64,000 nt of DNA from Diabrotica undecimpunctata. Lineage: Eukaryota > Arthropoda > Insecta > Coleoptera > Chrysomelidae. Where the stretch lies: assembly GCF_040954645.1 (NCBI RefSeq), contig NC_092811.1:84763063-84827062 (forward strand), read 5' to 3'. The position numbers and the translations under genes are program-made. Positions 11,134 through 51,175 of the stretch are shown here, in pieces. Numbering within the stretch: position 1 is the first letter of the stretch; every line of letters begins with the position of its first letter. The notes below the pieces were generated by a model. The model was not told the origin of the DNA, did not search any database, and worked only from the letters and a program-made list of their open reading frames with translations.

Positions 11134-12710
11134 GTTTTTACCAGCACAGAATGGAACATATGAAAAAACAGACTGGAAAAGAGCCTTATAAATGTGAAAT
11201 TTGTTTTAAACAGTTTAGCGGAATAGATTATTTAAATCGACATGTAAGAACGCATACTGAAGAAAAATCTTTTAAGTGTAAAATTTGTTTTAAACAATTT
11301 GCTAGGAAAGATCAATTAAATCAAAATTTAAACATGCGCACTGAAAAAAAACTATACAAGTGTGAAAATTGCTTTCACCAATATACTACAACAGGTAATT
11401 TGAAACACCATATGAGGGTGCACACTGGAGAAAAGCCTTACCAGTGTGAAATTTGTTTTAAGCATTTTAGTCAATTAGGAAGTTTAAAAAAGCATTTGAG
11501 AGTGCATACTGGAAAAAAACCTTACAAGTGTGAAATTTGTTTTAAGCAATTTAGTGAAACAGGAAGTTTACAAAAGCATTTAATAGTGCACACTGAAGAA
11601 AAACCTTACAAGTGTGAAATTTGTTTAAAGCAGTTTACTACAGCAAGTTATTTGAAAATACATTTGAGAGTGCACACTGGGGAAAAACCTTACAAGTGTG
11701 AAATTTGTTTTAAGCAATTTATTAGAAAAGGAAGTTTAAAAACGCATTTGATAGTGCACGCTAAAGAAAACCCTTACAAGTGTGAAATTTGTTTCAAACA
11801 GTTTACTAACGCAGGCCATTTGAAAATACATTCGAGAGTGCACACTGGGGAAAAACCTTACAAGTGTGAAATTTGTTTTAAGCATTTCTTTCAAGCAAAT
11901 AATTTGAAAAAACATATGAGATTGCACACTGGAGAAAAACCTTACCAGTGTGAAATTTGCTCTAAGCAGTTTACTCAAGAAGAAGGTTTAAAAAAACATT
12001 TGAAAGTACACAGTGGAGAAAAACCTTACCAGTGTGAAATTTGTTTTAAGCAGTTTACTACAGCAAGTTATTTGAAAATACATTTGAGAATGCATACTGG
12101 AGAAAAACCTTACCAGTGTGAAATTTGTTTTAAGCAATTTAGTGAAAGAGGAGGTTTAAAACTGCATTTGATAGCGCACAATGAAGAAAAACCTTACCAG
12201 TGTGAAATTTGTTGTAAGCAGTTTACTGCAGCAGGTCAACTGAAAATACATTTCAGAGTGCACACTGGGGAAAAACCTTACAAGTGTGAAATTTGTTTTA
12301 AGCAATTTAGTGAAAGAGGAAGTTTAAAAAAGCATTTGATAGTGCACACTGAAGACAAACCTCACAAGTGTGAAATTTGTTTTAAGCAGTTTACTACAGC
12401 AGGTCATTTGAAAATACATTTGAGAGTGCACACTGGGGATAAACCTTACAAGTGTGAAATTTGTTTTGGACAGTTTACTACAGCAAGTTATTTGAAAATA
12501 CATTTGAGAATGCACACTGGGGAAAAACCTTACAAGTGTGAAATTTGTTTTAAGCAGTTTGCTCAAATAGATTATTTAAAAAGACATTTGAGAATTCACA
12601 CTGGAGAAAAACCTTACAAGTGTGAAATTTGTTTTAAGCAGTTTACTACAGCAAGTTATTTGAAAATACATTTGAGAGTGCACACTGGGGAAAAACCTTA
12701 CCAAGTGTGA
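11134..12710 (+). CDS. C2H2 zinc-finger protein, terminal exon, 18 fingers
   Basis: A splice acceptor (TTTATTTTAG) ends at 11133; the first ATG is at 11151, so this is probably the last exon of a multi-exon gene whose start I cannot see. From 11151 the frame gives 519 residues holding 18 tandem C2H2 fingers of 28 residues each (CEICFKQF...LKxHLRVH joined by TGEKPY linkers). Finger 2 has lost its His pair (NLNMR). Fingers of this type bind DNA, usually as transcription regulators; no KRAB, ZAD or other effector domain is visible. The frame closes at YQV* because of one extra A in TACCAAGTG, exactly at the junction of a 7-finger tandem duplication. The fingers continue downstream in other frames, so the stop is either a mutation or an assembly indel. 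Confidence 0.8.
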
Positions 12711-13860
<1,150 letters not shown>

Positions 13861-13874
13861 GTAAAAACCAAAAT

Positions 13875-14660
13875 TTGAAATTTCATAACGAAACGAAAGA
13901 TGTGGATATAGGACAAGTTTATAAAGAAAGGAATAAAGATAAGTTCCAGGGCCATAGAAACTATAATAACTCTAAAAGTAAAACCAACACTAATGAAAAA
14001 TTCAAGTGCAAACAGTGTCAATTAACTCATGGAGCCAGAGAATTTCCAGCGTATGGAAAGAAATGTAAGAAATGTGGGATTTAAACCATTTTGCAAAGTC
14101 GTGCAGAGTCAAGAATATTGATGTCATAGATGAAGGTAGCAGTGATGGATCATCTGATATTTTTGTAGGAAATGTTAATAAAGTATACCAAGATGTAAGT
14201 TGTCAAAATATTTGGGATGGAATTATTATAGAAATTGAAAATAAAAGAATTAAAGTAAAACTTGACACAGGTGCTGATGTAAGTATAATTCCATTAAAAA
14301 TTTTTAAGAAAATTGATAAACAGTTTAAAATTAGGCATAATCAGTATGTACTTAAAGGGTTTGAGGGTACTCAGGCTAAAACAATAGGTGTTGTAAATTT
14401 AGTTTGTAAATATAAAAATAAGTATGTTTATGATTACTTCACCATTATTGATGGGGCAACTCGAGTTCTTCTAAGTGGTAAATTATGTGTTGATTTGGGA
14501 TTAGTTAAACGAATCAACAATGTTGAGAGTTGTGGTACTTTAGAACTAGCCGAAAGGAATAAATTTATAAACCTTAACCCCGATGTTTTTAGGGGTCATG
14601 GTAAATTTTATGGTAAACATAGGATTATTACAGTAGACAATTTTGAACCAGTAAGTTACC
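13875..14660 (+). pseudogene. gypsy gag C-terminus and aspartic protease
   Basis: A gag tail rich in Lys/Asn leads to a CCHC knuckle (CKKCG then LNHFAKSC) broken by a one-base frame change at about 14075. The protease follows in the second frame: LDTGADVSIIP is the catalytic DTGA motif and VLLSGKLCVDLG the C-terminal flap region. In the live element the protease would cut the Gag-Pol polyprotein. Coding stops making sense after SYPP, where the SINE begins. Confidence 0.75.
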
Positions 14661-14663
14661 CAC

Positions 14664-14966
14664 CCATAAATGTAATAATAATAGTCTCCCGTTTTATACC
14701 GCTTCGTGGCTTTGGAAGTATAGCAGGGTAGTCTGCTATATCTAGGGCCTACGGTATACAAGGAAGGTAACATGGCCAGTGCTACGCTTCAACCGCCTAT
14801 TATTACCCCTGGTTTTACCCAAGGTACTCATTTTTATTCAGGCTGAGTCGACCTGGGGCCTATAGACATTTTTAAAAATGTCTAGTTGTTCTTGTCGGCG
14901 TTAGGATTCAAACTCCGGACCACCGGCATGCGAGGCAAGCATCCTACCGCTTGCGCTACGCAGGCC
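14664..14966 (-). mobile_element. tRNA-derived SINE inserted in the gypsy pol region
   Basis: On the minus strand the head (right end) has an A-box-like TAGCGCAAGCGG, an anticodon-loop-like GCCTCGCATGC, and a B-box-like GAGTTTGAATCC, i.e. a tRNA-like RNA polymerase III promoter. The tail ends at the left in a TAATAATA-type simple run. Pol coding resumes directly to the right (KRGAIVKVNE), so this is a clean insertion. A non-autonomous element that depends on a LINE enzyme. Confidence 0.8.
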
Positions 14967-14970
14967 CCGT

Positions 14971-16218
14971 AGCGGCAAAAGAGGGGCAATTGTGAAAGTT
15001 AACGAAATTGACCCGAGGGCAAGCATAAACCGCATTGTTATTGTGGAAAAGCAAAATGGTAAGTTACGTTTATGCCTAGACCCATCAGACTTAAATAAAC
15101 AAATTGTCCACAAACCAAGAATAGTACATAAATTGGAAGATGTTTGTGCACAAATGATGGGTAAAAAGATATTCTCTGTATTTGATCTCTCTGAAGGGTA
15201 TGATCATTTGGAACTTGATGAGGCATCATCCTGGAAATGCTGTTTTGCAACATCATATGGAATTTTCAGATATAAAGTATTGCCGTATGGATTATCAAAT
15301 TCCCAGGATCTGTTTCAAGAAGTAGTAGAAGATAAATTTAAAGGTATAGAGAATTTATTGATTTGTCATGATGATATGATTGTTATGGGAACAACAAAAA
15401 AAGAACATGACACAACTGTTAAAAAAGTTTTAGAAAGAGCTAAAGAAGTAGGAGCGAAGTTTAATAGTGACAAATTCCAATATTGTCAAGAAGAGGTCAA
15501 ATTTATGGGCCAAGTTTTTTCACACAAAGGGATGCAAATAGATCCTGATAGAGTGGAATCACTTTGCAAACTCAAAGAACCAAATAGTAAAATAGAATTG
15601 CAACGAATTTTGGGTGCATTCAATTATGTTAGACAGTATATTCCGAATATGGCTGAACATATTCAACCTCTTTGTCAATTACTTAAAAATAATGTAGAAT
15701 GGGTGTGGCTCCCTTCACATCAAAAATGTTTCGATAATTTAAAGAACATCATTTGTAAATCACCAGCTTTAGTCCCGTATGATCCTAATCAAAAAATTAT
15801 TTTATAATGTGATGCATCTAAAAATGGCTTAGGTGTTTGTATGTTCCAGAAATATGAGAAAGTTTTAAAATTAGTAGCTTGTGCATCACGAAATATGAAT
15901 GATAGTGAGATAAATTATAGTCAAACTGAGAAGGAACTATTGGCAATCTATTATGCTACTCAAAAATTTCACAATTTTATTTATAATTTTGATGTTGATG
16001 CAGTCAGATCACAAACCTATAATCTCCATTTTGAATAAGCCAATTTGCAAAATTGGATCAGTTAGACTCCAACGTTTAAGACTTAAACTTCTCAAGTATA
16101 GATTAAATGTTTATTTTGTTCCTGGAAAAGACATACATTTTGCTGATATGCTATCTAGGTCTAGTTTAAATATAAATACACAAGACCCAGAAATGTTTGA
16201 AAGTCCATTCCGTGAGTA
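14971..16218 (+). pseudogene. gypsy reverse transcriptase and RNase H
   Basis: RT motifs run from VIVEKQNGKLRLCLDPSDLN through FSVFDLSEGYDHLEL and YKVLPYGLSNSQDLFQ, to LICHDDMIV, where the usual YVDD has become CHDD. QRILGAFNYVRQYIPNMAE closes the RT connection, and RNase H continues as CDASKNGLG and NYSQTEKELLAI. Breaks: a TAA just before CDASKNG (about 15805) and a frameshift near 16000-16020, after which DHKPIISILNKP and LQRLRLKLLKY resume. Not able to make an intact enzyme. Confidence 0.85.
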
Positions 16219-17599
16219 AACATTTACCTATGAGTCAGGAAAAGCAATCTGAGTTAAGACTAGCTACTAGTCAGGATGAAGCATTGGTAGTAATTTTTGA
16301 TTTTTATTACAATGGGTGGCCAAAAGAAAAAAATGTTCCTCAAGTATGTAAAAAGTACTATGGTATAAGAGATTCGCTGTATTTTGAAGCTGGTATTGCA
16401 TTCATGCATGACAAAATAATTATTCCGAGAAAACTTAGACTTGACATGATAAAATTGCTTCATAAGGGCCATATAGGAGTCAGTAAAACTATAAAAAAAG
16501 CCAGGAGTATATTTTATTGCCCAGGACTTAATGATGATATAACAAACTATATAAAAAAGTGCAGGATATGTGAGAAATATAGACCAAATAATTTTAAAGA
16601 ACCAATGATGCCTCATGACATTCCTAGACTAAGATTCAATAAAGTTGGTACAGACATTTTAGAGTATGGTTCAAAGGCATATTTAGTAATTATTATTTAG
16701 TAGATTATTTTTCGCATTGGTTGGACATTTCAGTATTAAAAGATAAAACCCCCAGTTCAGTAATCAACTCATTTCAAGATACCTTTAGTAGATTTGGATA
16801 TCCAGAAATTTTAATTGCAGATAATCTACCATTTACCTCAGCGAAATGTAAAAATTATTATAGAGAAAAAGTCATTACAATTATGACATGCACCCCACAT
16901 TACCACCAGAGTAATGTACTTGCAGAAAAAGCAGTCAATATAAGCAAGCAAATTAATGAGGAAAATAATGATTTTAGAGATCTTGTAATGGAATATAATA
17001 ATACCTGCATAATAAATCTCGATGCATCTCCAGCTCAAATTTTACAGAGCAGGATCCTGAGACGACAATTACCAACTACAGCTAATAAATTAGAACCTAC
17101 AATCCAGAAACAAGTATATGAGAATTTGTGCAGAGAAAAAGAAAAATTACAATTACATTATGATAAGACATCACGAAGAAAACCAGTAGAGTTTAGAAAG
17201 GGAGTTGGTGTAGTAAAAAGAAGTTCAAAAGATAATTATTGGCATAAAGCAATTGTATTAGAAAAGGCAAATGAACCTAGATCATATTGGGTAAGAAAAG
17301 AAGGTAACAATAGAATTATTAGACGGAACTCACACCAAATGAAACACTTATGTAAGAGAACACTTGAAAAAGAATTCATTTTAGAACCCGAGTTGTACCC
17401 CGATATTCAGTCACAGAGTGTTCATAAAGATACTGCTAGCAGCCACGTAAATGATAATGTTAATAAAATAATTGGGTGTCCAAGCCCAAATGTAAAATCA
17501 GTACCTATGTTGAGTCATAATGTCAACCCAAATATTGAGACGACTTCTAACAGTTATAAGACCAGAGTTGGTCGTAGTATAAAAACCCCTTATAGATAA
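16197..17599 (+). pseudogene. gypsy integrase
   Basis: A zinc-binding HHCC domain (HKGHIGVS, then CRICEKY) precedes the catalytic core: D in VGTDI, D in IADNLPFTS, and E in VLAEKAVNISK. A C-terminal region with RKPVEFRKGVGVVKR follows. A TAG breaks the frame between YLVII and VDYFSHW at about 16698. The family inserts the cDNA into host DNA. The C-terminal extension to 17599 is variable and unrecognised. Confidence 0.8.
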
Positions 17600-21105: not shown

Positions 21106-21178
21106 TTTAACTAATCAGACGACCGGTTTCGCTTTCTACAATATGCAAAGCATCTTCAGGTCACGATACAAAGTTAAA
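21106..21178 (-). ncRNA. Hammerhead ribozyme, type I (left arm)
   Basis: Exact mirror of the motif at 21787-21859: CTGAAGA core, helix II GCTTT/AAAGC, GAA, palindromic helix III ACCGGT, cleavage triplet GTC, helix I GAC/GTC plus TTTAACT/AGTTAAA. Confidence 0.75.
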
Positions 21179-21786: not shown

Positions 21787-21859
21787 TTTAACTTTGTATC
21801 GTGACCTGAAGATGCTTTGCATATTGTAGAAAGCGAAACCGGTCGTCTGATTAGTTAAA
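21787..21859 (+). ncRNA. Hammerhead ribozyme, type I (right arm)
   Basis: Helix I pairs TTTAACT (21787-21793) with AGTTAAA (21853-21859) and GAC (21803-21805) with GTC (21845-21847) around an asymmetric internal loop. The core CTGAAGA is at 21806-21812, helix II GCTTT (21814-21818)/AAAGC (21830-21834), GAA 21835-21837, helix III is the 6-base palindrome ACCGGT (21838-21843), and C21844 is the cleavage base (GUC). All core positions are kept. A helix III this short without a loop fits hammerheads that act as dimers. Confidence 0.75.
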
Positions 21860-38027: not shown

Positions 38028-39456
38028 TACCGAAAGTTCATAAAACGGATATACCACTTAGACCCATTTGTAGTACCATGAATTCTCCTTGTAGTGAACT
38101 ATCAAAATTTTTATTAAATATTTTAAAACCAATTGCAAATAAAAATGACACATTTATAAAAAATACACAACATTTTTTAAATAAATTATCAAAAATTGAA
38201 TTTAATTCAAATAATACTTTAGTAAGTTTTGACATAAATAGTTTATTTACGAATGTGCCATTAGATAAGACTTTAAATATTATAGTCAAGACAAAATTAG
38301 AGAGTGATGATACATTGGCAACCAGAACAAGACTAAATATATCAGCTATAATGGAATTAATAACATTATCTACTGATAATACATATTTTCAACTAAATAA
38401 TGAATTCTATAAACAAAATTTTGGTCTAGCAATGGGCTCTAGTTTATCTCCATTATTAACCGATATATTTATGGAAGATTTTGAAACAAATATTATTTCT
38501 AAACAAAATTTAAAACCCTTAGTATGGTGGAGATATGTAGATGATGTATTCTTAATATGGCCTCATGGATCAGAGTTGTTGGACACATTCCTAAATGATA
38601 TAAACATAAAGAAGAGACAATAACATTTACCATGGAAAAGGAATATAATAACACATTACCTTTCCTGGATGTTTTAATCTCTAAGAACGATACTGGATAC
38701 GAAACTCATTAATATATTATCAAATCATATTAATATTAAAAAGGGAATCATTAAATCCTTATACGATAGAGCCAAAATTACTTGTTCTAACGAAAATTCG
38801 TTCGTGGAGGAAAAACATTTGTTAACATCCGTTTTATTAAAAAATGATTTTCCTCTATCGTTTATAAATAAGGAATTTTCAACAATTGATCGAATAGAAC
38901 AAAACAAAGCAAAGAATGAGATTCTACAGCATATACAAGGAATAATACGAGGAAAATAACAATACCATACATAAAAGGATTATCGGAAAAGCTTAAAAGA
39001 ATAGGAAATAAATTCAACATTTTAACAACATTCAAAACAACAAACACGTTGAGATCCATTTTGTCCAAAACCAAACCTAACAATGAACAAGAAAGGACAA
39101 GGAACTGCGTTTATAAAATACCTTGTGAATGCAATCAGTTTTATTTAGGTGAAACATCAAGGCCATTAAATGTTAGAATAAGTGAACATCAATCCTATAT
39201 TAAAAATAGAGAATTTGATAGATCTCAAATATGTAAACACGCATGGAATAATGAACATAGGGTTCAATGGAATGATTCAAATATAGTCCTAAAAGAAACG
39301 GATGGTAAAAAGAGAAAAATCAAAGAAGCGGCTCTAATTATGCTAAATGAGACCAATTGTGTCGCGAATTCCTCGGCAGAATGTAGTAGGATCTGGTTAT
39401 CCATATTGAAAGAGGAAGTTATTAAAAGGAAAATACCAGTATTGGTAAGTCAGTAA
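38028..39456 (+). pseudogene. Penelope reverse transcriptase with GIY-YIG endonuclease
   Basis: The RT part (38078-38623) shows LVSFDINSLFTNVPLDKTL (motif A), QNFGLAMGSSLSPLLTDIFM (motif B) and WWRYVDDVFLIW (YVDD). After a frameshift and an apparent deletion near 38630-38710 (KRQ, then PITFTMEKEYNNTLPFLDVL), a connector follows (ITIPYIKGLSEKLKRIGNKF), then the endonuclease (39049-39456): CVYKIPCECNQFYLGETSR (GIY-YIG box) and LNVRISEHQSYIKNREF. Penelope enzymes nick DNA with GIY-YIG and copy their RNA by target-primed synthesis. The N-terminal part is missing and there are at least two frame breaks, so the copy is inactive, but both catalytic signatures are intact. Confidence 0.85.
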
Positions 39457-40077: not shown

Positions 40078-40566
40078 AGTATTGGACTTAATATGGTCTC
40101 TCCTGTCACTTTTCTAAAAATCAGTTCCACCCTTCCCGAATATAATCATATTTTAAGATTCAGAAGACAAGTATACGTCAGTCCCTATAATATCTCCTTG
40201 CCCGACTCATTCACCTTAGACTTCGATAATACAACATATCGAATATTCTTATCTCAAGAAACTATGGCCTGTTATAACTGCAAAAAGTCTGGACATATCG
40301 CCAACAACTGTCCCGATAAACTAGAATCAACAACAAATTTAATTGATTCTAATAACAGTCGATCTACTACTCCTTTCTCATCTGATATCATGCCTCAACC
40401 TGCAGCAACATCCATATCAAACGAACAAATTTCCGTCCAAGAAAAATTAGCAAACAATCTGAGCAATCCTAAAGGTCAAGAAGAAGTTAACACCATGGAA
40501 AGCTGCAAAGTAATTAATATCGATCTTCAGCCAAAACGTAGTATCAATGATGTTCTTTCGTCTTAA
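40078..40566 (+). pseudogene. LINE ORF1 (Gag-like), C-terminal part with zinc knuckle
   Basis: Reads VSPVTFLKISSTLPEYNHIL, RFRRQVYVSPYNISLPDSF, RIFLSQETMACYNCKKSGH and IANNCPD: a CCHC knuckle CYNCKKSGHIANNC, then a Ser/Asn-rich tail ending at the stop near 40566. Continuous with the 37594-38021 part once the Penelope insert is taken out. Confidence 0.8.
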
Positions 40567-40905: not shown

Positions 40906-41074
40906 ACTGCAATGGAATATAGATGGATTTTTTCATCGACTTCCAACCTTAGAAAAACTTATTTCTGAATTGTCTACCGAAATAATATGTCTCCAAGAAA
41001 CAAATTTAAACCCCCAAAAAACTATAATTCCAAATATTTTAACATTTTTAGAAAAGATAGAGTACATGACAATA
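40906..41074 (+). pseudogene. LINE ORF2 endonuclease, start
   Basis: Frame reads LLQWNIDGFFHRLPTLEKL, ISELSTEIICLQETNL, the Asn and Glu motifs of an APE-type endonuclease (QWN and LQET). It stops at the 12-base target duplication TACATGACAATA (41063-41074), where the 398-bp array begins, and continues at 43836. Confidence 0.8.
41063..41074 (+). repeat. Target-site duplication of the 398-bp array (left copy)
   Basis: TACATGACAATA, repeated exactly at 43824-43835. Confidence 0.95.
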
Positions 41075-41331
41075 TCGCTAAGAATTTTGCTTAGTTGAAA
41101 AGATATGTTGTGGAATGCAAGTTTTAGATTCCCCATGTCTCTCTTAACACCTTTATCAACGTCTGTTTTTGCCTTGCAATTCTTAGAAGGCACAGATTAA
41201 AGCGGAATTCTTGAATTTGGTTTCGAAAATTAGTCTACGATTTTATTATCAGATGTCGCTACATTGCGTCTATACGAAGCCATGTTATAGTTGCTTCCTA
41301 AGACAGAGAAGAATTATTTCACGTTCAGAGC

Positions 41332-41394
41332 GCTTGCGAAAGCCGTTCTGATGATGCCTATTGGGCTGAAATACGTATAAACGGATGCGCAAGC
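41332..41394 (+). ncRNA. Hammerhead ribozyme, type I (array unit 1)
   Basis: Helix I outer part is GCTTGCG (41332-41338) with CGCAAGC (41388-41394), the internal loop AAAG/ATG, and the inner part CCGTT (41343-41347) with AACGG (41380-41384). The core CTGATGA is 41348-41354, helix II GCC/GGC, then GAA 41368-41370. Helix III is the palindrome ATACGTAT (41371-41378), and A41379 is the cleavage base (triplet AUA). Confidence 0.85.
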
Positions 41395-41729
41395 TCCCTA
41401 TACGTGAAATAAAATCTTAACTGTCTTTTCCTTGTTATTTCGATATACTCTGTACGAGTACTAGAAACCAATTCGCTAAGAATTTTGCTTAGTTGAAAAG
41501 ATATGTTGTGGAATGCAAGTTTTAGATTCCCCATGTCTCTCTTAACACCTTTATCAACGTCTGTTTTTGCCTTGCAATTCTTAGAAGGCACAGATTAAAG
41601 CGGAATTCTTGAATTTGGTTTCGAAAATTAGTCTACGATTTTATTATCAGATGTCGCTACATTGCGTCTATACGAAGCCATGTTATAGTTGCTTCCTAAG
41701 ACAGAGAAGAATTATTTCACGTTCAGAGC

Positions 41730-41792
41730 GCTTGCGAAAGCCGTTCTGATGATGCCTATTGGGCTGAAATACGTATAAACGGATGCGCAAGC
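41730..41792 (+). ncRNA. Hammerhead ribozyme, type I (array unit 2)
   Basis: Same sequence and fold as 41332-41394, offset 398. Confidence 0.85.
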
Positions 41793-42127
41793 TCCCTATA
41801 CGTGAAATAAAATCTTAACTGTCTTTTCCTTGTTATTTCGATATACTCTGTACGAGTACTAGAAACCAATTCGCTAAGAATTTTGCTTAGTTGAAAAGAT
41901 ATGTTGTGGAATGCAAGTTTTAGATTCCCCATGTCTCTCTTAACACCTTTATCAACGTCTGTTTTTGCCTTGCAATTCTTAGAAGGCACAGATTAAAGCG
42001 GAATTCTTGAATTTGGTTTCGAAAATTAGTCTACGATTTTATTATCAGATGTCGCTACATTGCGTCTATACGAAGCCATGTTATAGTTGCTTCCTAAGAC
42101 AGAGAAGAATTATTTCACGTTCAGAGC

Positions 42128-42190
42128 GCTTGCGAAAGCCGTTCTGATGATGCCTATTGGGCTGAAATACGTATAAACGGATGCGCAAGC
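42128..42190 (+). ncRNA. Hammerhead ribozyme, type I (array unit 3)
   Basis: Same sequence and fold as 41332-41394, offset 796. Confidence 0.85.
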
Positions 42191-42525
42191 TCCCTATACG
42201 TGAAATAAAATCTTAACTGTCTTTTCCTTGTTATTTCGATATACTCTGTACGAGCACTAGAAACCAATTCGCTAAGAATTTTGCTTAGTTGAAAAGATAT
42301 GTTGTGGAATGCAAGTTTTAGATTCCCCATGTCTCTCTTAACACCTTTATCAACGTCTGTTTTTGCCTTGCAATTCTTAGAAGGCACAGATTAAAGCGGA
42401 ATTCCTGAATTTGGTTTCGAAAATTAGTCTACGATTTTATTATCAGATGTCGCTACATTGCGTCTATACGAAGCCATGTTATAGTTGCTTCCTAAGACAG
42501 AGAAGAATTATTTCACGTTCAGAGC

Positions 42526-42588
42526 GCTTGCGAAAGCCGTTCTGATGATGCCTATTGGGCTGAAATACGTATAAACGGATGCGCAAGC
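42526..42588 (+). ncRNA. Hammerhead ribozyme, type I (array unit 4)
   Basis: Same sequence and fold as 41332-41394, offset 1194. Confidence 0.85.
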
Positions 42589-42923
42589 TCCCTATACGTG
42601 AAATAAAATCTTAACTGTCTTTTCCTTGTTATTTCGATATACTCTGTACGAGTACTAGAAACCAATTCGCTAAGAATTTTGCTTAGTTGAAAAGATATGT
42701 TGTGGAATGCAAGTTTTAGATTCCCCATGTCTCTCTTAACACCTTTATCAACGTCTGTTTTTGCCTTGCAATTCTTAGAAGGCACAGATTAAAGCGGAAT
42801 TCTTGAATTTGGTTTCGAAAATTAGTCTACGATTTTATTATCAGATGTCGCTACATTGCGTCTATACGAAGCCATGTTATAGTTGCTTCCTAAGACAGAG
42901 AAGAATTATTTCACGTTCAGAGC

Positions 42924-42986
42924 GCTTGCGAAAGCCGTTCTGATGATGCCTATTGGGCTGAAATACGTATAAACGGATGCGCAAGC
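42924..42986 (+). ncRNA. Hammerhead ribozyme, type I (array unit 5)
   Basis: Same sequence and fold as 41332-41394, offset 1592. Confidence 0.85.
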
Positions 42987-43321
42987 TCCCTATACGTGAA
43001 ATAAAATCTTAACTGTCTTTTCCTTGTTATTTCGATATACTCTGTACGAGTACTAGAAACCAATTCGCTAAGAATTTTGCTTAGTTGAAAAGATATGTTG
43101 TGGAATGCAAGTTTTAGATTCCCCATGTCTCTCTTAACACCTTTATCAACGTCTGTTTTTGCCTTGCAATTCTTAGAAGGCACAGATTAAAGCGGAATTC
43201 TTGAATTTGGTTTCGAAAATTAGTCTACGATTTTATTATCAGATGTCGCTACATTGCGTCTATACGAAGCCATGTTATAGTTGCTTCCTAAGACAGAGAA
43301 GAATTATTTCACGTTCAGAGC

Positions 43322-43384
43322 GCTTGCGAAAGCCGTTCTGATGATGCCTATTGGGCTGAAATACGTATAAACGGATGCGCAAGC
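43322..43384 (+). ncRNA. Hammerhead ribozyme, type I (array unit 6)
   Basis: Same sequence and fold as 41332-41394, offset 1990. Confidence 0.85.
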
Positions 43385-43719
43385 TCCCTATACGTGAAAT
43401 AAAATCTTAACTGTCTTTTCCTTGTTATTTCGATATACTCTGTACGAGTACTAGAAACCAATTCGCTAAGAATTTTGCTTAGTTGAAAAGATATGTTGTG
43501 GAATGCAAGTTTTAGATTCCCCATGTCTCTCTTAACACCTTTATCAACGTCTGTTTTTGCCTTGCAATTCTTAGAAGGCACAGATTAAAGCGGAATTCTT
43601 GAATTTGGTTTCGAAAATTAGTCTACGATTTTATTATCAGATGTCGCTACATTGCGTCTATACGAAGCCATGTTATAGTTGCTTCCTAAGACAGAGAAGA
43701 ATTATTTCACGTTCAGAGC

Positions 43720-43782
43720 GCTTGCGAAAGCCGTTCTGATGATGCCTATTGGGCTGAAATACGTATAAACGGATGCGCAAGC
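43720..43782 (+). ncRNA. Hammerhead ribozyme, type I (array unit 7)
   Basis: Same sequence and fold as 41332-41394, offset 2388; the last ribozyme before the array ends. Confidence 0.85.
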
Positions 43783-43823
43783 TCCCTATACGTGAAATAA
43801 AATCTTAACTGTCTTTTCCTTGT

Positions 43824-43835
43824 TACATGACAATA
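43824..43835 (+). repeat. Target-site duplication of the 398-bp array (right copy)
   Basis: TACATGACAATA, identical to 41063-41074. Confidence 0.95.
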
Positions 43836-45775
43836 ATTTCTCTTCAGGTGGTGTTATGACACTTGTCAAAAAATCTTTGGTTGCAAATGTTTTTCCTGTC
43901 AATAGTAACATTGAAGCTATAGTTATAGAGATCACCGCCCCCGTTCCAATTTTTATTTGTAACATTTACCTTCCATCTAGTTCTTCAGCTACATATGAAG
44001 ATTTAAAAAGCCTTATCGAACAGATACCCTCTCCTCGAATCATCGTAGGTGATTTTAACGGTCATAACTTTATTTGGGGCTCTAAGCGTACTGATCACAG
44101 AGGAAAACTTTTAGAAAAGGTAGTGCAGGATCTTCAATTAAATTTTCTAAATGATGGTTCACCTACAAGATTTAACATCTGCACTGGAGAATCCTCACAT
44201 GATAGATACTCCGTGATAGATTTAAGCTTCTGTGATCCAGGTCTTGCTCTACGTCTCTCTTGGACTGTTCTCGAGTTTACTTATGGTAGCGACCATCACC
44301 CTATTACCATTAAGAATCTCTCAGGTCAGCCTTGCCCAATATCCTTCTTGCCCAAATGGAATATAAATTCGGCTGAGTGGATCGATTTTGAAAATTTTAT
44401 AGATAAGGCTTTGGAGAGTCTTATACTGAATGATAATATAAATGATTCTTTAGGTACTTTTAATAGTGTCATCTTTCAGAGTGCGTAGCTCTTCATCGGC
44501 AAAACAAAGCCCAATAAAAATCATGTTCCAGTGCCTTGGTGGAATTCGGAGTATAACGATGCAGTACGTGCCAGCAAAACAGCTTGGGCCCAATATGTCT
44601 CTAGCATTAACAGCTCCACTCCTGTAAGAGAAGTATGGAAGAAAATACGTAAAATTTCTGGTATAAAGGAGTCATCCCCAATATCTAGTCTTAAAATAGG
44701 TAATCAAATTGTCATCTCTCCTCTTGAAATTGTTAATACATTAGCTAAAAACTACAGAGACATGTCTTCCAATGAAAATTTTGACCCTGTATTTCTGGAA
44801 ACTAAACTAGAGACCGAAAGGTCTAACCTCTATTTAGAAAACGATAACATTCCATTAAACGCTCCTCTCACGTTACAAGAACTAAACAACTCACTGAACG
44901 ATCTAAACGAAACAAGTCCTGGACCTGATGATATCCCAACTATTTTCTTAAAACACCTACCCACTTCTGCTAAAAATTACATGCTTCAATTATTTAACTT
45001 CATCTGGCAGCGACACCAGTACCCATCTGTTTGGTCACAATCTATCATTCTCCCATTTCTCAAAAGCCAAAAATCTTGTCTAGACCCGAATTCCTATAGA
45101 CCGATAAGCTTAACTTGTGCAATGGGCAAGCTACTAGAAAAAATTATTAACTCAAGGCTGACTTGGCATCTAGAAAATTCGAACTTACTTATAAACGAAC
45201 AAAATGGTTTAGACAACATATTAGACCTGGAAAGTGATATTCACGAATCTCTGGCAACAAAACAGCATTGTATCGCAAGTATTTGTTGACTTAAGAAAAG
45301 CATGTAATACATGTTGGAGATTCAACATTTTAAAAAAGTTACAGTCATGGAGCATTTGTGGAAATTGCCTTCATTTTATTAAGAACTTTCTAGAAAACAG
45401 ATCTTTTCGTGTAAGAGTTAACAACTACTATTCCGAAATGCAGGAGGAAGAAAACGGTATCCCTCAAGGCTCAATTCTTAGTCCTACTAAACACGTTTAT
45501 ATGCATATGACTTGGTGGTTTATGTAAAAGGCAAAGATATTAATTTAACTTTAACAATTTTGCAAAGTTTCTTACAAAAACTCGAAAAGTGGTCTCGCGA
45601 TACTGGTTTTCGATTCTCGGTTACAAAAACCATTGGTATGGTATTCTCAAAAAAGAACTCAAATAATCCCAATCTCAAGTTTTTCAATACATCGCTATCC
45701 TTCAAATCATGTGTACAATTCTTAGGTATGTGGTTTGATAATCAACTTAATTGGAAAGAACATATAAGACAATAA
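43824..45775 (+). pseudogene. LINE ORF2: endonuclease rest and reverse transcriptase
   Basis: The endonuclease continues SSGGVMTLVKKSLVANVFPV, FICNIYLPSSS, IVGDFNGHNFIWGS (D and N motifs) and TYGSDHHPITI (SDH). A short break (TAG at 44486) leads to PWWNSEYNDAVRASKTAW, then RT: NETSPGPDDIP, SIILPFLKSQKSCLDPNSYR with PISLT, FVDLRKACNTCWRF (motif A damaged), NGIPQGSILSPTK, and DLVVYVKGKDIN where YADD should be (deleted to AYD). Frameshifts at about 45240 and 45500. Non-functional. Confidence 0.85.
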
Positions 45776-48444: not shown

Positions 48445-48999
48445 GTACAGGGTAGTGATGTAACGAATATTCGCATTCGCGAATATTCGCATATTTTTGC
48501 ATATTCGCATTCGCATTCGCGAAATGTGTGCGAATGTTTTGCGAATATAAATATGTATAAAAAAAATAATTTGAAGATTAGGTTAATAAAATAAAAATCC
48601 ATTCACTTCTCAGTTTTTTTATTAAGAAAAAATCTCACTTTATTTTACAAGCTTAGAAAACTATAAAATTAGAAAACAAAAAATAAATGATGCAGTGTAA
48701 ACAAACAAAAACAAATTATTCTCTGAAACTTTTATTATCCAAAAGTTTTTAATTTTAGACAAGCATCTTGAAAAAGTCTAAGAATTATTAAACTACAAAT
48801 TAAAAATAGTCTATGTGTTTTTATGTAAAGAGTTTAAACAAACAAACATACACAGTTCGACTTCAGTTAGATAAGTTCAGATAAATTTATTAATTCAGCA
48901 ATTTTCGGGACAAGATACATATTATAATAAAAGAGGTTAGTCTTTGTATGTGGGTATATTTTATTTTATAAAAACCCTTAAAAGGGCAACATTACAAGC

Positions 49000-49035
49000 A
49001 CGAACGTTTTCGGAACAACTGTTCCATCATCAGGT
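49000..49035 (-). ncRNA. Hammerhead-like core (left palindrome arm)
   Basis: Mirror image of 49163-49198: CTGATGA, helix II GGAACA/TGTTCC, GAA, palindrome AACGTT, C. No convincing helix I. Confidence 0.45.
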
Positions 49036-49162
49036 TAAAATACAGGTTACCATGCCTGAGCCACCAAAATATTTGGGTAAAAACCCTTTAAAATGAAATG
49101 TGTGTTTTAAAGGGTTTTTACCCAAATATTTTGGTGGCTCAGGCATGGTAACCTGTATTTTA

Positions 49163-49198
49163 ACCTGATGATGGAACAGTTGTTCCGAAAACGTTCGT
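49163..49198 (+). ncRNA. Hammerhead-like core (right palindrome arm)
   Basis: CTGATGA (49165-49171), helix II GGAACA (49173-49178)/TGTTCC (49181-49186), GAA (49187-49189), palindromic helix III AACGTT, C49196 (triplet UUC). Core order fits a hammerhead, but flanks form only two helix I pairs, so probably degenerate. Confidence 0.45.
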
Positions 49199-49605
49199 GC
49201 TTGTAATGTTGCCCTTTTAAGGGTTTTTATAAAATAAAATATACCCACATACAAAGACTAACCTCTTTTGTTATACGTGGTATACAGCCAGCTACAGGAA
49301 TTATTTTCCTTGTGGATTTTATTTTACATATTATAATGTACACTACACCGCAATGTAATACAGTACATAATTTGTATAATTGTTCTGAAAATTGCTGAAT
49401 TACTAAATTTATTTCAACTTATCTAACTACACACCTCACACAAATGAAACTGCCGGCAGTGCCGGAGACAATTAACATTGTCACCAAATAAAAAAAAACT
49501 GAATATTCGCATTCGCATTCATATTCGCGAATGTCGGTGGCATATATTCGCATTCGCATTCGCGAATGTTCAAAAACTGACATTCGTTACATCACTAGTA
49601 CAGGG

Positions 49606-50527: not shown

Positions 50528-51175
50528 GTTATCTCCAAGAAGAAATCAAAATGGAAATTATGGAGGCACTAATTGAACATTCATCTCACGAAAGAAATTA
50601 TATGAGTCCGCACTCACTCTGACGGCAAAACATTAAATCAAAATAAGAAAGTTGTGACTGGACAAAGACCATACAAGTGCGAAACTTGTTTTAAACAGTT
50701 TAGTGAAGCAAGTAATTTAAAAAGATATTGGAAAGTGCACACTAGGGAAAAACCTTATACGTGTGAGATTTGTTTTAGTCAATTCAGTGAAGAAAGTACT
50801 TTGAAAAATCATTTAATAACACACACCGGGGAAAAACCGTATGAGTGTGAGATTTGTTTTAGGCAATTTATTCAAGCAAGAAATTTAAAAACACATTTGA
50901 GAGTACACACTGGAGAAAAACCTTATAAGTGTGAGATTTGTTTTAAGCAATGAAGAATTTTTAAAGATCATTTGAGAACACACACTGGGGAAAAACCTTA
51001 TATGTATATACGTGAGAATTGTTTTAAGCAAATTAGTACTGCGGGTAACTTGAAGACACATTTAAGAGTGCACACTGGAGAAAAAGCCTACAAATGTGAA
51101 ATTTGTTTTAAATGGTTTAATAACTACATAATACTACTTTGAAAGGACATTTAATTTTAAAGTGTGAAATTTAAT
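50528..51175 (+). pseudogene. C2H2 zinc-finger exon, broken
   Basis: A splice acceptor (TATTTTAG) precedes 50528. Finger coding from 50654 gives [20 protein letters not shown] (degenerate His), [40 protein letters not shown], then a fourth finger cut by TGA at 50950. Two further partial fingers follow after indels ([33 protein letters not shown]). An AATAAA-like signal is at 51174. Finger spacing and style match the 11-13 kb locus, so it is likely a paralogous remnant. Confidence 0.75.

Follow-up and report, generated by a model that had tools for sequence, protein, structure and literature searches.

A probable non-LTR retrozyme array with a 12-bp target duplication in a decayed LINE of Diabrotica undecimpunctata

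A LINE endonuclease reading frame of Diabrotica undecimpunctata is interrupted by a tandem repeat, and the locus raises the question of what this repeat is and how it came to be there. Within the window (the whole stretch of 64,000 nucleotides that was analysed), the repeat is best explained as a non-LTR (metazoan-type) retrozyme that was inserted by reverse transcription, in sense orientation, in the endonuclease region of a now-decayed LINE. The probability of this reading was put at about 0.8. That one-step copying of a circle made the array is a separate claim, which we consider fairly probable. The repeat and the complete monomers in it have the following positions.

41075..43823, + strand: probable retrozyme array (2749 bp; 6.907 head-to-tail units of 398 bp; 37% G+C; 2 substitutions)
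41380..43767, + strand: six complete cleavage-to-cleavage monomers of 398 nt each (arithmetic from the repeat period and the predicted cleavage sites)

Tandem Repeats Finder placed the repeat at 41070-43825, with a period of 398, 6.9 copies, 99% matches and 0% indels. The first-pass annotation had counted 6.9 near-identical units, and the count was borne out: the 2749 bp correspond to 6.907 units with two single-base differences overall. The units differ at two columns only, in each case by a T to C change in a single unit. The unit has a G+C content of 37.4% and codes for no protein, the longest stop-free run in the tripled 398-bp unit being 54 codons on the plus strand and 78 on the minus strand. 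No second array of the unit was found within the 64-kb window. Comparison of the unit with the rest of the window returned short matches only (≤28 bits), and no tail common to the unit and the neighbouring LINE or Penelope-like remnants was seen. The same annotation had called the copy young. A recent origin of the array is supported by its sequence, in which 2749 bp show two differences, against several stops and frame changes in the host LINE; so few unit differences beside a decayed host are expected if one template recently served all units. The T to C differences lie at window positions 42255 and 42405 (+ strand). A-to-I editing of minus-strand RNA would yield the same T to C change in the array units, and with two sites the pattern may be chance.

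The borders of the array and the LINE around it comprise five features.

41063..41074, + strand: TACATGACAATA, the 12-bp target duplication on the left side of the array (exact match)
43824..43835, + strand: TACATGACAATA, the 12-bp target duplication on the right side of the array (exact match)
41001..41074, + strand: LINE endonuclease frame to the left of the interruption, ...FNIFRKDRVHDN (frame and relatives; 41001 is approximate)
43836..45289, + strand: continuation of the LINE, with endonuclease and start of the reverse transcriptase (Pfam, frames, relatives)
40093..40566, + strand: ORF with a CCHC zinc knuckle (Pfam zf-CCHC)

The exact 12-bp duplication that had been noted on both sides of the array was found again at these coordinates, and on the plus strand of the window its sequence occurs only at the two array borders. 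In a test of random position pairs with the same spacing within the window, with 3 bases of slack on either side, none of 17,592 pairs reached a 12-bp match, the best being 11 bp. The endonuclease frame had also been said to resume after the array. Joining of the flanks (41074 to 43836) restored a single LINE endonuclease frame, ...FNIFRKDRVHDNNFSSGGVMTLV... / ...KYFNIFRKDRVHDNNFSSGGVMTLVKKS..., and 32 of the 81 aligned relatives cross the insertion point without an array-sized insert (81 alignments among the 120 listed of 133 proteins found). One relative, P0040 (FRKDRVAINSISSGGVATLVK), is ungapped at the insertion point, and four other inspected relatives have one- or two-residue gaps near it. 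Relative to P0040, the nearest full relative there, no codon was lost at the insertion site. An exact duplication without codon loss is what staggered cleavage by mobile-element enzymes typically leaves. The exact repeats and the restored empty-site frame thus uphold an insertion into the LINE with a 12-bp target duplication. The recent copy interrupts a frame that can be recognised, and this fixes the two array borders and the duplication to the base.

Among the matches listed, the named best relatives of the LINE belong to Diabrotica undecimpunctata, at 53-55% identity, and to Diorhabda, at 44%. To the right of the array, Pfam Exo_endo_phos_2 was matched in 43820-44488 (E 2.5e-21), and an RVT_1 match in 44531-45289 stayed under Pfam's cut-off (22.3 vs 29.6 bits). 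This part of the LINE is itself broken by stops and frame changes, and on the left the frame shifts just upstream of 41001. The ORF at 40093..40566 is probably ORF1 of the interrupted LINE. The LINE-1-type nick has the consensus TTTT/AA; no such nick was seen by eye at the insertion point, and the duplication alone therefore does not name the helper.

Hammerhead ribozymes recur through the array at the repeat period.

41328..41396, + strand: first type I hammerhead (descriptor, shuffles, structure), with six more at steps of +398, the last at 43716-43784

A hammerhead fold in each unit was among the initial proposals, and seven type I descriptor matches with the full core were obtained in the array. 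The core is present in 7/7 copies and consists of C3UGAUGA9, G12AA14, the A15.1-U16.1 pair and A as H17, with C3 at 41348 + 398n. Stem I has five inner and seven outer pairs, plus a further 11-bp arm. Stem II, between CTGATGA and GAAA, has 3-4 bp, the basal position being a U.U mismatch, and stem III has 2 bp and an ACGT loop. Cleavage is predicted between 41379 and 41380 and then at each 398 nt, which gives seven sites (41379 + 398k, k = 0 to 6). The descriptor was devised after the array had been read; it covers types I and III and tolerates the array's basal mismatch in stem II. In 60 shuffled 64-kb windows, searched on both strands, it gave a mean of 0.067 matches and a maximum of 1. No type III hammerhead was returned in the array by this descriptor. 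CTGANGA is absent from the minus strand of the unit, unlike in a viroid-like RNA with hammerheads in both polarities. Rfam cmscan gave no hammerhead, neither at gathering thresholds over the window nor at E up to 5 on 41000-43900, so that the case for a hammerhead is built on core, helices and fold and not on a family model. This null result counts against the call but was weighed less than the core and helices. The units, the hammerhead core and fold, the target duplication and the uninterrupted empty-site frame are shown at this locus.

Outside the array, two further, weaker sites also passed the type I descriptor, 21159 on the minus strand and 21806 on the plus strand. They form an opposite-strand CTGAAGA...GAAA pair with weak helices at 21133-21159 (-) and 21806-21832 (+). 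A near-perfect inverted repeat at 48923-49275, with 171-nt arms that are 99% complementary and an 11-nt loop, carries a hammerhead-like CTGATGA-stem II-GAAA core in each arm (49008-49033 minus and 49165-49190 plus). These two cores fail the type I and III descriptor, and we take them to be perhaps like the minimal motifs of Penelope-like elements.

The folding of the unit RNA was evaluated with models that omit tertiary contacts. The circular fold energy of the unit was 5.4 s.d. below dinucleotide shuffles, and that of the minus strand 6.0 s.d. below (100 shuffles each). Pair probabilities in the circular fold were 0.79-1.0 for stem I and stem II, the U.U at the base apart, and 0 for stem III. 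For the 69-nt motif alone, the hammerhead structure had an energy of -16.5 kcal/mol compared with -22.1 kcal/mol for the best fold. The circular unit is 63% paired, and the figure given for metazoan units is above 70% (PMC4918200). Judged by these folds, cleavage of a single hammerhead copy may be poor, in line with published axolotl units, where the HHR_Amex2 monomer cleaves 22% in an hour and the dimer much better (PMC7229834).

The array was compared with known systems as the cited sections of the respective papers describe them. Metazoan non-LTR retrozymes consist of non-coding tandem units of 170-400 nt with a type I hammerhead and a G+C content below 45%, and their target duplications, when present, are longer than 4 bp (PMC7229834). 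The array is likewise non-coding, of type I and below 45% G+C, with units of 398 nt and a duplication of 12 bp. Axolotl HHR_Amex2, like the array, is described with U.U mismatched at the base of its stem II and with a tetraloop on a 2-bp stem III (PMC7229834). Compared with the metazoan non-LTR retrozymes, the empty-site reading frame is the addition made by this locus. In another host, Nematostella vectensis, tandem type I hammerhead units also occur with a LINE-sized duplication, of 15 bp compared with 12 bp here (PMC4918200). Plant LTR retrozymes are likewise non-autonomous and hammerhead-bearing with a proposed circular RNA intermediate, but they have type III hammerheads, LTRs, a primer-binding site and 4-bp duplications, whereas type I and 12 bp were found here (PMC4918200). 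Penelope-like elements resemble the array in their tandem arrangement, their target duplications and the hammerheads in their pseudo-LTRs; however, they encode a reverse transcriptase and a GIY-YIG endonuclease (PMC11167929; PMC3846280), and the 398-bp unit has no stop-free run of more than 78 codons. In rotifer Penelope elements, target duplications of 8-10 bp are described for some copies and none for others (PMC3846280). Because 12 bp falls between these 8-10 bp and the 15 bp of Nematostella, the length of the duplication does not name the helper either.

The class, the unit size, the ribozyme type, the circular RNA, the long duplications and the circle-to-multimer model are already published (PMC7229834; PMC4918200). 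What is new here is a further retrozyme of the published class with an unusually clear insertion site. Retrozyme unit sequences are described as species-specific, with insects among the carriers (PMC7229834, Cervera and de la Pena 2020). Among the matches listed, covering titles and abstract openings of the open-licence retrozyme and hammerhead-Coleoptera literature, no description of a beetle retrozyme was found. An exact 57-nt core pattern had 0 matches in viral contigs. A looser core pattern matched 20 loci, of which 18 belong to prokaryote genome contigs and 2 to viral contigs. Three or fewer of six stem I pairs were present at 19 of these 20 loci; the remaining one, L014, has 5/6, with the innermost pair missing by eye. 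By the same count the array has 5/6, with the innermost position paired by eye. On stem I pairing, the 20 viral and prokaryote loci were taken as chance background.

In the published model for animal retrozymes, a transcript is cleaved by its hammerheads, a circle is formed by ligation, rolling reverse transcription is carried out by the helper of another element, and the product is integrated (PMC7229834; PMC7761336). This model most likely fits the present locus. A multimeric transcript of another array would be cut by its own hammerheads into 398-nt monomers, which a host ligase would circularise. The reverse transcriptase of another element, a LINE or a Penelope-like element, would nick the target DNA, prime on the circle and circle the template ~6.9 times. 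The second strand would then be made across the 12-nt stagger, giving the target duplication. Of these steps, we infer the cleavage, the circle, the helper enzyme and a single event for all seven units. The single locus agrees with the published integration model without extending it.

Units this alike could come from a single circular template, from a recent in-place expansion or from a uniform linear source. For an in-place expansion, a shorter retrozyme of one to three units would have been inserted with the 12-bp duplication and expanded later by unequal crossing over or replication slippage. The borders and the duplication would then be the same, and a recent expansion likewise makes near-identical units, but a second event is needed. 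Moreover, no variant is common to units, contrary to the tendency for a duplicated older, varied array; with two variants this argument is weak. As each of the two differences is private to one unit, one-step copying and later expansion are not told apart by them; the latter we nevertheless regard as unlikely. Slightly less likely still is a route with no circle, in which reverse transcription copied a linear, multimeric transcript of another array that had escaped cleavage. Such a transcript would likewise yield head-to-tail units with arbitrary end phases, and hammerhead mutants of a Penelope-like element left RNA insertion in vitro unaffected (PMC11167929). However, this requires that seven hammerheads stayed uncut and that the source array was no less uniform than the array at 41075-43823. 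It is highly improbable that break repair inserted an ordinary satellite block, or a circle of DNA excised from such a block, and that the hammerhead is incidental, given the complete hammerhead core kept in 7/7 copies and the exact 12-bp duplication with no codon lost against P0040, as is typical of staggered mobile-element cleavage. What speaks for it is that, in Schistosoma, a route through circular intermediates made of DNA has been discussed for the hammerhead-bearing W elements (PMC8490949). A long satellite block without target duplication was rejected, as 6.9 units stand between exact duplications at this locus. From the first-pass interpretation, the retrozyme-type unit, the insertion with a 12-bp duplication and the recent date were retained; the single insertion of a multimeric cDNA copied from a circular RNA, which it had favoured, is the likeliest route and not a proved one, since in-place expansion or an uncleaved linear multimer would leave the same sequence.

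For one-step copying of a circle, the preferred account of the array, the positions of the ends on the monomer were considered. The array start corresponds to position 94 of the monomer and the array end to position 56, phases that lie 37 nt apart on the circle. An array start 95 bases after the cleavage had been claimed. Start and end do lie away from the cleavage site, but the start is position 94.

41436..41472, + strand: 37-nt segment between the end and start phases, monomer 57-93 (first of six, at 398-bp steps)

A predicted hairpin, TACTC-TGTAC-GAGTA, lies within this segment at monomer 67-81, with pair probabilities of 0.76-0.89 in the circular fold; a hairpin near the array ends was sought only after the ends had been seen. 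The chance of two random ends lying ≤37 nt apart is about one in five (2 x 37 / 398). At the right border, unit and target have 2 nt (TA) in common, and at the left border CAAT is found in both, offset by one base. With one locus, and with ends that lie 37 nt apart and flank a predicted hairpin, the argument from "arbitrary" ends is weak. An unlikely proposal is that the ends are not arbitrary and that the helper reverse transcriptase recognises the hairpin at 67-81, starts a little upstream of it at position 56 with 2 nt of target homology, makes 6.9 rounds and stops at 94, on meeting the hairpin again. If this is true, an initiation site would be built into the circle, much as internal initiation has been shown for a Penelope-like element (PMC11167929), and end phases would be common to arrays genome-wide. 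The locus could serve as the reference point for testing end phases and duplication lengths across the genome.

As helpers of retrozymes, LINEs or Penelope-like elements are proposed, the latter as a strong candidate, in a passage that puts this forward without test; Penelope-like elements co-exist with retrozymes in the animals analysed there (PMC7229834). According to the cited section of a further paper, animal retrozyme units show no motif pointing to the helper (PMC7761336). Probable Penelope-like remnants are found near the array.

38078-38623 and 39049-39456: probable Penelope-like element fragments, ~2 kb upstream of the array

The first fragment encodes a reverse transcriptase (Pfam RVT_1), and its weak PDB matches include telomerase. 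The second gave no match in Pfam or PDB sequence searches; read by eye, it is a possible GIY-YIG endonuclease. The nearness of these remnants to the array proves nothing. At 14072-17599, remnants of an LTR-type retroelement contain a reverse transcriptase and the zinc-binding domain of an integrase; an aspartic protease was matched there too, under Pfam's cut-off. Long ORF-bearing arrays of zinc-finger-like repeats with an 84-bp period, C2H2 by eye, occupy 11335-13824 (29.6 copies) and 50657-51111 (5.5 copies).
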